DNA of 64,000 bases from Photobacterium sp. CCB-ST2H9 (lineage in GTDB: Bacteria > Pseudomonadota > Gammaproteobacteria > Enterobacterales > Vibrionaceae): contig NZ_CP100425.1 in assembly GCF_023151555.2 (NCBI RefSeq), positions 806,001 to 870,000 on the forward strand, written 5' to 3'. The notes below the pieces were generated by a model, which was not told the origin of the DNA, ran no database searches, and worked only from the letters and a program-made list of their open reading frames with translations. This document shows positions 30,709-55,224 of the stretch, in pieces; the first letter of the stretch is position 1, and each line of letters opens with the position of its first letter. Position numbers and translations under genes: made by a program.

Positions 30709-32352
30709 CTAAATTTTGAACTGAGAGATTTGCTCATTCAGATGGCGGCCACTGGAGAGTAACTGCTCACTCGCTGCGGCGATTTGTTCTCCCTGTGCAA
30801 CATGGTGATGACTGTGCTCACTCAGTTCTGCCAGACTCATGTTGATGGCTTCTGCGGCATCTGTCTGCTGCTGGCTGGCGTCAGCGATATGCTGATTTAA
30901 ATCCCGGATGGTGTTGATTTGCTGACTGATGGCTGCCAGCGCCTGAGCGACTTCCCCTGAATGTTCAACGGTACTGACTGATTGATCCCGGGTTTGAACC
31001 AGGGCACGGCTGACATCGGCAGAGCGGTTTTGCAGGCGGGTAATAATGGTTTCGATTTCATTGGTACTGCTTTGGGTCCGGGTCGCCAGGGTGCGGACTT
31101 CATCCGCGACGACCGCAAAGCCACGACCCTGCTCACCGGCCCGAGCTGCTTCAATCGCGGCGTTCAGGGCCAGCAGGTTGGTTTGCTCGGCAATATTGCG
31201 GATGACATCAAGGACGGCGCCAATGGTTTCAGAATCTTCTGCCAGCGCCTTGGCGCTTTCATTGGTTTCGTCGAGCAGCGCAAGTAGTGCACGCATTTCC
31301 TCACTGGAGCGCGAGACAACGTCCAGTCCCTGATCGCTGTGAGTCTGTGCTTCCGTTGCGGCTTCTGCGGCGTTCGTCGCTGAGCGGGCGACTTCCTGAT
31401 TGCTTGAATGCAACTCAGTCATTGCTGACGCGACTGAATCAACACGCTGATGCGCCTGACCTGCACTTTCTGCTGTGGTATTGGCGACGACATTGAGCTG
31501 ACTGGCTGCCGCGCTGATGTGTTCACTGACGGGGGAGACGGCTCTCAGCATTTCGCTGATCTTGTCTGCAAACTGGTTGTAAGCCGTGGCAATTTTACTT
31601 AATTCATCATTGCCCTGAACGGGCAGGCGGCGGGTCAGATCGCCTTCTCCCCGAGAGATGTCCTGCATGGCTTTCAGCGTTGATTCACAGGGGGCGGTGA
31701 TGGTCCGGCCGATGGCTCTGGCCAGAATGAGCATGAGGATCAAGGAGCCGCCAATAATCAGACCAAGGCGTTTCAGCTCGGCATAGAATTGAGCTGCCAC
31801 GTCATCGACATAGATTCCCGAACCGATGATCCACCCCCAGGGGCTGAAGCCTTTCACGAAAGAAATTTTGTCGACAGGTTGGGCATGTCCGGGTTTTTCC
31901 CATTGATAGTCGACAAAGCCTTCCCCCTGACGCTGAACAATTTCAGCCATGTTGACGAAAAGCTTGTTCCCGATGGGATCCTGAAACTGAGACAGATCTT
32001 TACCATCGAGTTCTGGCTTGAAGGGGTGCATGATCATGCGGGGATGGCTGTCGTTAATCCAGAAGTAGTCATTTTTCTCATATCTCAGGCTGGCAATTGC
32101 TTGCCTTGCAAGCTGCTGAGCTGTTTCGCGGTTCAGATTTCCGGTTTTTTCCTGCTGATAGTAGAAGTTCAGCAGGCTGTGGGCACTTTCAACCAGATTC
32201 CGCGTCTTATCTCGCTTTTGATCCAAGAGTGAATCCTGGTAACCAGATACAAATGTCATCAGCGGGAAGAGTGTGAGGAGCGTGATGATAAAGCCAAGCA
32301 GGTAGAGTCGGCTGCTGATCGATAAAGAACGTAGGTGGTGAAGTATTGTCAT
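30709..32352 (-). CDS. Methyl-accepting chemotaxis protein with a single Cache domain
   Basis: A transmembrane chemoreceptor of 547 residues. A first membrane span ([20 protein letters not shown]) leads into a periplasmic single-Cache (sCache_2-type) sensor at about residues 35-185, with [17 protein letters not shown] and [16 protein letters not shown] second span is followed by a HAMP-like linker ([16 protein letters not shown]). The signalling tip [20 protein letters not shown] near residue 400 binds CheA and CheW. The ligand is unknown; sCache sensors often bind small carboxylates. I choose ATG 32352 ([10 protein letters not shown]) for its AAGGAAGG site. A sigma-28-like promoter lies upstream. 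Confidence 0.93.
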
Positions 32353-32409
32353 AGCGCTGCCTTCCTTGTTTGCACTCATGGCAAATGAGCATGAGTCATG
32401 TTGTATTCT

Positions 32410-32436: not shown

Positions 32437-32531
32437 GTCTCATTTCTTAATTTTTATGCGTTTGCTAACACTTGTGTTGTAAGAAAAATACTTTCACAAG
32501 GGTGAGTTTTGTGGTGTTGATCCAGGAAAAG

Positions 32532-32547
32532 TGTGATCTAGTTAAAA
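32532..32547 (+). promoter_or_regulatory. CRP-like binding site
   Basis: TGTGATCTAGTTAAAA matches the 16-bp CRP core TGTGATCTAGATCACA at 13 of 16 positions, with a perfect left half. Its centre is about 49 bp before the predicted transcription start and just upstream of the -35, a position compatible with repression or unusual activation. Confidence 0.5.
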
Positions 32548-32553
32548 TTAATA

Positions 32554-32582
32554 TTGTAATTAAATTACCTTTTGGTTATCCT
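32554..32582 (+). promoter_or_regulatory. Predicted sigma-70 promoter of the small-peptide/sRNA unit
   Basis: -35 TTGTAA (32554-32559), a 17-bp spacer and -10 TATCCT (32577-32582). Transcription would begin near 32589. Confidence 0.6.
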
Positions 32583-32713
32583 GTGACCAAGTTGCAAGAA
32601 CGATAGTCAGCACAGGGAAAAGGTATGTGCGCGGACTCCAGGGAACCGAGATCAATCAGCTCTGCTTTGTTTGCAACCTCAAAGCAGCATAAGTAATTGA
32701 GGAAGTCGTTGTC

Positions 32714-32803
32714 ATGAAAGTATATGAATCCACAGCTAAATTTTGGAACAAGAAAGGCATTTTCGGTGGTTCTTTCAACTATCCAAGTGCGTTTGGTTAC
32801 TAA
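32714..32803 (+). CDS. 29-residue small protein (VcdP-like candidate)
   Basis: A 29-codon ORF starting ATG with GAGGAAG eight bases upstream and ending TAA. The peptide begins MKVYESTAKFWNKKG and ends NYPSAFGY. It is rich in aromatic and glycine residues, has a basic centre, and has no membrane span or signal. The strong ribosome-binding site, the non-random composition and its place inside a short promoter-terminator unit argue that it is translated. By length and context it may correspond to VcdP, the citrate-synthase-binding peptide of Vibrio cholerae. If not, it is an unassigned small protein. No longer ORF overlaps it with coding character. Confidence 0.7.
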   Translation: MKVYESTAKFWNKKGIFGGSFNYPSAFGY

Positions 32804-32963
32804 GTAAATTCAAGCCAGCTTTGTTTCTGTCTGGCTATCTGCCTGATTGACTCGCAGCGCTGAGGCGGTGCGAGGTTGATATTCACCCCCTAACTTTCAA
32901 GACTGTATACAGCGGTTTGGTAGCAATTTTGATTGTTGCTCTCGCCAGTGAGATTAGTTTTGG

Positions 32964-32992
32964 CGCCACCCAGGATCGGGTGGCGTTTTTTT
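32964..32992 (+). terminator. Intrinsic terminator of the small-peptide/sRNA unit
   Basis: CGCCACCC, a 6-base loop, GGGTGGCG and seven T. It has the 8-bp stem and uninterrupted T run typical of Hfq-dependent sRNA 3' ends. Confidence 0.9.
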
Positions 32993-33295
32993 ATTTCTGT
33001 TTTTTTATTCATGAAGTTTCATTCATTCTTTCTCATTGAGAGATTGGATAAAAAAGCATGTATACGATTACATCCTGATAAGCCAGCCAAAGCAGGCACT
33101 CTTTTTTCTGATTTAAGCGTTTGCCTTGAAAGCAAAAAATAAATTCGGTTAAAAGACATACATCCTTGCATCTGTTTAAGGTGATGATTTTTAATTGTTT
33201 TTAATCTTCAGTAATTTTTGCCGAAGAAAATTTACGCATTATTTGCCGTCAGGCGTGTATTCTTGATGAGTCTGGTAATTTATTAGTGATAAGCC

Positions 33296-34744: not shown

Positions 34745-35206
34745 ATGACTAAAAAGTTCGTCATCACCTGGGATAACATGCAAAGCTACACGCGCCAACT
34801 GGCGGAAAAACTGCTGCCGGCGGATCAGTGGCAGGGGATTATCGCAGTGAGCCGTGGTGGCCTGGTGCCGGCTGCAATTCTTGCTCGCGAACTGGGTATT
34901 CGTTATGTCGATACTGTTTGTATTTCCAGCTACGACCATGACCACCAGCGTGACATGAAAGTATTGAAGAAAGCCGACGGTGATGGTGAAGGATTCATTA
35001 TTGTGGACGATCTGGTTGATACAGGCGGCACCGCGGAAATGATTCGTGCTATGTATCCGAAAGCAAAATTTGTGACGGTCTGCGCCAAGCCAGCCGGTAA
35101 ACATCTGGTTGATGATTATGTGGTTGATATTGAGCAGGATACCTGGATTGAACAACCATGGGATATGGCTGTCACTTTTGTTGAGCCGATTTCCAAGCGC
35201 TCATGA
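34745..35206 (+). CDS. gpt: Xanthine-guanine phosphoribosyltransferase
   Basis: Salvages guanine and xanthine (and weakly hypoxanthine) to their nucleotides with PRPP. The 153-residue length is close to E. coli Gpt (152). The start region includes [20 protein letters not shown]. The PRPP loop is [17 protein letters not shown] near residue 85, and [16 protein letters not shown] is near residue 40. It lies 52 bp after the purine permease with no terminator in between, so import and salvage are probably cotranscribed. A terminator follows. Confidence 0.96.
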
Positions 35207-54966: not shown

Positions 54967-55224
54967 TTAGTGCAGTTGATCCATCAGGGCAACCAGGTGG
55001 TCAACAGCTTCTTGTGCTTGCGCACCTTCAGCAGAAATAGTTACCACAGTGCCTTTGACCAGGCCCAGTGTTTGCAGTTTGAACAGGCTTTTTGCACTTG
55101 CGCTTTTACCGTTAGAAGTAACAGTGATGTCTGCGTCAAAACCTTTTGCTTCTTTCACGAACTGCGCAGCAGGACGAGTGTGTAGGCCGTTTTCTGCAGT
55201 AATCTCAACTTGCTTCTGATACAT
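54967..55224 (-). CDS. ptsH: Phosphocarrier protein HPr
   Basis: The 85-residue HPr of the sugar PTS. The phospho-acceptor is H15 in [16 protein letters not shown]. The serine region [14 protein letters not shown], around residue 46, is the enterobacterial-type sequence without a regulatory kinase. It heads ptsHI-crr, 55 bp before ptsI. Confidence 0.98.

Follow-up and report, generated by a model that had tools for sequence, protein, structure and literature searches.

Introduction

The closest described system, VcdRP (formerly Vcr082), has already been published for Vibrio cholerae by Venkat et al. in 2021 (PMC8672173). In the accessible parts of that report, vcdRP is placed between vc2278 and vc2279, its transcription is repressed by CRP, and the RNA pairs with the starts of ptsHI, ptsG, nagE and treB. 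SgrS/SgrT of enterobacteria is organized similarly, with a small ORF ahead of a base-pairing segment by which PTS mRNAs are silenced, but SgrT acts on PtsG and transcription is activated by SgrR (PMC8672173); at the Rfam gathering level, no sequence relation to SgrS/SgrT was seen for the locus described here. Spot 42 of E. coli is likewise a CRP-repressed carbon sRNA (PMC8672173), the activity of which is remodelled by CsrA (PMC10729762), but its sequence is unlike that of vcdRP. The V. cholerae toxR leader contains several GGA motifs bound by CsrA, and the published binding data, which include a CsrB test RNA in which two linked GGA were required, indicate that good binding by V. cholerae CsrA depends on a pair of linked GGA motifs (PMC11633198). 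The toxR leader belongs to an ordinary protein-coding mRNA, and we claim no homology between it and vcdRP.

Results

A vcdRP locus in Photobacterium

We analysed a 64,000-nt stretch of the 5.17-Mb genome of Photobacterium sp. CCB-ST2H9 (bases 806001–870000 of contig 1, hereafter the window), in which the original prediction had proposed a CRP-controlled RNA that was either a homologue or a functional analogue of VcdRP. The proposed CRP-like site, −35/−10 pair with a 17-bp spacer, 29-codon ORF with its ribosome-binding site, ACCCCCT patch and sRNA-style terminator were all recovered (Table 1), and all parts of the locus, including a leader of ~125 nt, fall within window positions 32478–32993. 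The prediction of about 190 nt of structured RNA was not supported as such, as the whole RNA folded no better than shuffled sequences (z = −0.86; 18 of 100 shuffles folded as well or better). The match of the ORF to the VcdP family model, the same order of parts, the complementarity of the C-rich patch (C-patch) to the ptsH and nagE starts, and the pepD and gpt neighbours make it nearly certain that window positions ~32589–32990 are vcdRP, a homologue of VcdRP and not a mere analogue. Overall, the locus is very probably best explained as vcdRP, a single RNA of ~400 nt with the VcdP coding sequence and, at its 3′ end, the VcdR silencing arm.

Table 1 Features of the vcdRP locus (positions within the window)
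Feature	Position	Strand	Basis or remark
Weak upstream HexR-type box TGTAAGAAAAATACT	32478..32492	+	3/12 mismatches
CRP-like site TGTGATCTAGTTAAAA	32532..32547	+	Right half-site degenerate
Promoter: −35 TTGTAA (32554–32559), 17-nt spacer, −10 TATCCT (32577–32582)	32554..32582	+	Read from sequence; predicted start near 32589
HexR-type box TGTAATTAAATTACC overlapping −35	32555..32569	+	1 mismatch to published motif; conserved
Leader hairpin GCACA-GGGAAAAGGUA-UGUGC, GGA in loop (32616–32618)	32610..32630	+	Conserved hairpin
Conserved leader element CTCCAGGGAACCGAG, second GGA at 32642–32644	32636..32650	+	Alignment, pattern searches
Ribosome-binding site GAGGAAG	32699..32705	+	Read from sequence
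vcdP ORF, 29 codons, MKVYESTAKFWNKKGIFGGSFNYPSAFGY	32714..32803	+	NCBIfam NF053523
Predicted VcdR base-pairing patch ATTCACCCCCTAAC, holds ACCCCCT (32885–32891)	32881..32894	+	Pairing, locus comparison
Rho-independent terminator, stem 32962–32987 then T run	32962..32993	+	Terminator scan

As described for V. cholerae VcdRP (PMC8672173), the locus has a CRP-like site upstream of the −35 hexamer, the 29-codon vcdP, a C-patch 3′ of vcdP and a Rho-independent terminator, and it shares the pepD side. The dimensions differ, in that the RNA predicted here is ~400 nt long compared to 306 in V. cholerae, the ORF starts at about +126 rather than +104, and the patch lies 77 nt from the stop codon instead of about 30. 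Here, unlike in V. cholerae (PMC8672173), a chemotaxis receptor gene separates pepD from vcdRP, the right CRP half-site is weak, and pairing with treB was not found.

One flank of the locus consists of pepD and the chemotaxis receptor gene and the other of a permease gene and gpt; pepD and gpt were found by NCBIfam, and the permease, for which NCBIfam gave no match, is our reading of the sequence. We take vc2278 and vc2279 to be the permease and pepD, between whose homologues vcdRP lies here as well, with the chemotaxis receptor gene inserted. This receptor gene (window 30709–32379) is CtpM-like (359.5 bits, cut-off 900). The gpt gene (window 34745–35206) scored 272.9 bits with the Tet(34) exception model, below its cut-off of 345, indicating an ordinary xanthine phosphoribosyltransferase, although the name is a trap for automatic annotation. 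Many Photobacterium loci (e.g. L045, L051 and L056) carry a conserved TGTATTCGATTACA-type motif after the terminator, which is probably the start of the control region of the next gene. The Rfam search of the locus returned no family at gathering score, and the best sub-threshold match, GlmZ (19.5 bits against 60), was rejected as not credible.

VcdP is conserved and appears to be translated

In the comparison with VcdP that the original prediction had called for, the ORF matched the NCBIfam model "small protein VcdP" (NF053523) over its full length (E 6.5e-13, 48.1 bits), 1.9 bits below the curated cut-off of 50, which counts against the assignment. The same model matched in 238 of the 296 Vibrionaceae genomes (160 of them above the cut-off) and in 9 of 13 genera compared to none of the 14 control genomes, contradicting the case, raised together with the prediction, that relatives do not conserve the ORF. 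With the window's own peptide as a query, matches were obtained in 45 of 52 Photobacterium genomes, and P. galatheae S2753 encodes an identical peptide, which places the strain close to this species. Mean differences over pairs of the 31 distinct 29-aa ORFs amounted to 5.23, 6.28 and 13.52 of the 29 codons at positions 1, 2 and 3, respectively, and this concentration at the third position speaks for a translated protein.

Short ORFs are common, and with 130 ORFs of at least 25 aa overlapping the 10 kb around vcdP, a lone 29-codon ORF means little. A chance ORF inside an unrelated intergenic RNA would agree with this abundance and with the lack of an Rfam family at gathering score, but is contradicted by the VcdP model match, the family-wide conservation and the third-position bias; we give this reading practically no weight. 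The model match, the 45 genomes of the genus and the codon-position bias together place vcdP above chance.

Seven Vibrionaceae genomes of at least 99% completeness (G123 of genus g12, G001, G005, G006, G011, G030 and G074) had no VcdP match, indicating that the locus was lost or never gained in some lineages. In another genome of genus g12 (G169, locus L153), vcdP is duplicated in tandem (972–1055 and 1221–1304), each copy having its own GGA leader, and a single C-patch and terminator follow the second copy.

The C-patch is complementary to the ptsH and nagE starts

The C-patch reads AUUCACCCCCUAAC, and the four consecutive cytosines 3′ of vcdP lie within ATTCACCCCCTAAC. Its UUCACCCC segment is the exact 8-nt complement of GGGGUGAA at the Shine–Dalgarno region of ptsH. 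This gene is located in the same window (minus strand, near 55188), which bears out, for ptsH, the statement of the original prediction that the window holds general PTS genes. For nagE, the site offered to the C-patch is GGGUGAAUAU across the start codon. We compared the predicted duplexes with those formed at 42 control starts, which were ORFs of the window and not curated genes. The nagE duplex (−18.6 kcal/mol) was equalled or exceeded in strength by none of these controls and the ptsH duplex (−17.8 kcal/mol) by one, compared to 10 for ptsG (−14.3 kcal/mol), 11 for mtlA (−13.3 kcal/mol), 15 for treB (−12.2 kcal/mol), 20 for fruA (−11.4 kcal/mol) and 21 for a further IIC gene (−10.8 kcal/mol); the names ptsG and mtlA were confirmed by NCBIfam, and nagE, treB and fruA are our reading of sequences found with PF02378. 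When pairing was summed over ptsH, ptsG, nagE and treB, 54 of 1000 shuffled seeds did as well. These comparisons indicate that ptsH and nagE look conserved as targets, that ptsG is doubtful and that treB is unsupported, so the expected pairing with PTS starts stood for the first two, was weak for ptsG and was absent for treB. The complementarity makes VcdR-type silencing of ptsH and nagE likely.

The C-rich patch was expected to be conserved among relatives, and 105 of 109 distinct Vibrionaceae loci had a C-run in the interval from the ORF to the terminator, a count that takes any run of at least four cytosines and hence includes contexts other than UUCACCCC, such as AUACCCCUAU. The exceptions include L188 and L190, in which the C-run is missing, and L016 and L087, where there are just three cytosines.

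A CRP-like site and HexR-type boxes at the promoter

The CRP-like site agrees with the consensus at 13 of 16 positions, and no other site in the window has 3 or fewer mismatches; shuffled sequences gave a mean of 0.13 such matches, with at least one match in 12 of 100 shuffles. Within the 10-base core, there are two mismatches, which are confined to the right half. The original prediction of a CRP-controlled RNA stood as far as the presence of the site is concerned, but the right half is weak and the direction was corrected to the repression reported for V. cholerae (PMC8672173). The promoter pair matches the consensus at 8 of 12 positions, one short of the 9 required by a generic promoter scan, which did not list it. 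A second TGTGA half-site, TGTGACCAAGTTGCAA, lies over the predicted transcription start (window 32582–32597) and is present in the window and in L039.

HexR is responsive to KDPG, which acts as its effector (PMC3223726), and its regulon in Vibrionales has expanded to central carbon genes (PMC3223726, PMC5343134); according to the available part of the V. parahaemolyticus report, sites downstream of a promoter go with repression and upstream sites with activation (PMC11906056). At the −35 hexamer of vcdRP, TGTAATTAAATTACC is one base off the HexR motif predicted for V. parahaemolyticus (PMC11906056). For 54 of 86 distinct loci, the best box near −35 had no more than 2 mismatches, compared to 32 of 1720 mononucleotide shuffles. 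A second box, which lay ~75 nt farther upstream in the rows inspected, had at most 1 mismatch in 60 of the 86 loci; with 3 mismatches, the upstream box of the window itself is weak, leaving just the −35 copy as a good one. The genome encodes hexR (NF008451, 547 bits) and contains 10 HexR-type sites with at most 1 mismatch, one of which is that of vcdRP and four of which lie upstream of pykA (beside hexR), ptsG, mtlA and pckA; among the ORFs neighbouring the other five, read by eye, no central-carbon gene was seen. The reversed control gave 5 sites, so that half of the genomic sites are to be expected.

Because the −35 box overlaps the promoter hexamer, part of its conservation may reflect promoter constraint. 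CRP could be the main regulator of vcdRP, the HexR-type box being an A/T-rich extended −35 and the conserved leader element described below a structural or processing signal. This explanation, which we consider possible though not probable, agrees with the overlap, the 5 reversed-control sites against 10 real ones, the 3 mismatches in the window's upstream box, and the V. cholerae report, in which CRP repression was shown and HexR is not mentioned in the accessible text (PMC8672173). It does not readily account for the well-matched box ~75 nt upstream in relatives, which lies outside the promoter hexamers, or for the same motif at four other central-carbon genes of the genome. We found no work on VcdRP and HexR together in the literature searched. 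On these sequence comparisons, HexR control of vcdRP is somewhat probable.

The leader contains two conserved GGA motifs

Of the 86 distinct leaders, which represent 148 loci, 84 have a GGA-loop hairpin, compared to 480 of 4300 dinucleotide shuffles, on which the script made the same selection of the best GGA-loop hairpin. The stem varies by compensation (GCUCA/UGAGU or UGAGC, GUUCA/UGAAC, GUUUA/UAAAC, GCUUAA/UUAAGC and, in the clade of the window, GCACA/UGUGC), and the loop retains GGA. Three of the 86 best hairpins look non-homologous (TCAG/TTGA, TGCUU/AGGUA, CGUCAAU/AUUGACG), and the count omits L032, L033, L036, L114, L195, L113–L122, L144–L155, the f25 loci L156–L175, and L130, in which the exact downstream element is absent. 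As loop lengths differ, a MAFFT alignment of 33 leaders shifts several stems, and the hairpin evidence therefore comes from the script and not from this alignment. The rows in the hairpin, HexR-box and C-run counts are related sequences and not independent events.

The second leader element, CUCCAnGGAACYGAG, is 15 nt long and near-invariant; columns C43–A47, G49–C53 and G55–G57 of the 33-row alignment are invariant, and the N of ANGGA varies freely. The two GGA motifs, the first in the hairpin loop, are 26 nt apart in the window, and the genome encodes csrA (PF02599, E 7.2e-25). It is plausible that the leader is a two-site CsrA target of the linked-GGA type. Counting against CsrA, the predicted unpaired probability of the second GGA averaged 0.48 and was 0.35 in the window. 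We rate the chances for and against CsrA control of vcdRP, as predicted from these motifs, about even. The sole match of a literature search for VcdRP and CsrA concerns Rickettsia; vc2278/vc2279 are absent from the main text of Butz et al. 2021 on V. cholerae CsrA (PMC7858070), and VcdRP from the accessible part of a 2026 preprint on CsrA binding models (PMC12889724).

Two other roles of the leader were weighed against CsrA binding. Its CCUCC segment, which resembles an anti-Shine–Dalgarno sequence, might pair with the vcdP Shine–Dalgarno region and switch translation without CsrA. More than 0.4 of the segment was predicted to be paired to that region in 13 of 90 leaders, but mean pairing was just 0.17 over the 90 leaders and 0.00 in the window; anti-Shine–Dalgarno folding was rejected as a general mechanism, and we regard such a switch as improbable. 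The near-invariance of the 15-nt element, together with the binding of the published RNA to Hfq and its cleavage by RNase E (PMC8672173), would also suit a second seed that pairs with trans targets, or a site recognized by a nuclease or by another RNA-binding protein. Against this, free variation inside the element is limited to the N of ANGGA, a pattern not favoured by a contiguous duplex, and the adjoining hairpin keeps GGA in its loop; we consider this role possible though not probable.

Relatives beyond Vibrionaceae

The 16-nt pattern CCTCCANGGAACYGAG from the leader was present, always as a single copy, in 61 of the 394 genomes of the order, and its reversed control had no match in any listed genome; the window has A as the first base of this pattern and so falls outside these counts. 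The matches comprised 28 of 34 genomes in Vibrionaceae, 2 of 2 in family f11, 20 of 21 in genus g47 and 0 of 12 in genus g37 of family f25, and 11 of 11 in family f2. In the class, the pattern was found in 1 of 369 genomes, in GC-rich DNA without a VcdP-like ORF, a lone match that looks like chance.

Family f11 has a full vcdRP between gpt and pepD, with the patch CAUCCCUA in both loci and, read by eye, a TGTAATTAAATTCC box at −35. In family f25, the peptide is MSGSNSTYWFAQSLYTQGFNYPNPYASRR and kin, and the loci read (L150, L156) also lie between gpt and pepD. All 4 f25 loci checked contained perfect TGTGAN6TCACA sites, and the same four had no good HexR-type box (best 3 to 6 mismatches of 12). 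CUCCAnGGAAC occurred twice in loci L156, L157, L162, L165 and L151 and once in L150. A C-run was flagged in 10 of 19 f25 loci, where the script often missed the true terminator; in 8 of them the run was CCUCCCCCUGCU, which we read as a terminator arm and not as a VcdR-type patch. In family f2, the peptide is MKNSVPATPVFGDLYNTKFTYPRHFGY and kin, with a hairpin and T run soon after the stop codon; the C-run was absent in 8 of 8 loci, the two loci inspected had no HexR-type box (4 or 5 mismatches), and the neighbouring genes differed in the one locus checked.

The VcdP model scored f25 and f2 peptides weakly (E 0.0006–0.003 for 3 peptides), so that what links them to VcdP is the common leader and the C-terminal pattern, plus synteny in the case of f25. 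As two of the three other families showed no VcdR-type patch, the leader and the small protein may be the older unit. In the simplest history, this unit may later have gained the silencing arm and the HexR boxes; the alternative is a loss in f2 and f25.

Discussion

As far as our literature searches reach, the HexR-type box, the GGA leader with its conserved element, and the occurrence of this leader with a VcdP-like ORF in three further families are new; the original prediction had mentioned neither the box nor the GGA leader. What we computed for the locus is its homology, the conservation of its parts and its complementarity to the starts of ptsH and nagE; the following steps are carried over from V. 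cholerae. With sugar present and cAMP low, CRP would leave the promoter and vcdRP transcription would rise; the VcdR cytosines would pair with the start regions of PTS mRNAs, lowering sugar uptake, and VcdP would bind and activate citrate synthase. To these we add two putative steps, in which HexR at the −35 box would be a second gate opened by KDPG, and CsrA, by bridging the two leader GGA sites, might set VcdP translation or RNA stability.

A more speculative history, which we consider possible though not probable, starts from an older unit found in four or more families, a CRP-controlled, CsrA-bridged leader joined to a citrate-synthase-activating micro-protein. The protein-only form would persist in families f2 and f25, whereas Vibrionaceae and f11 would have added the VcdR arm with HexR boxes, so that one RNA might integrate cAMP, KDPG and Csr before throttling PTS uptake and speeding the citric acid cycle.

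Finding vcdRP in Photobacterium confirms its occurrence well beyond the genus Vibrio and shows what selection retains of it; worth pursuing are the HexR box, the GGA leader and the relatives that have the protein alone. Should the predictions on HexR and CsrA both be true, a known dual-function RNA would be a hub for three global carbon signals. Relatives with just the protein would illustrate how such an RNA can arise and would provide a natural test of whether VcdP functions without VcdR.
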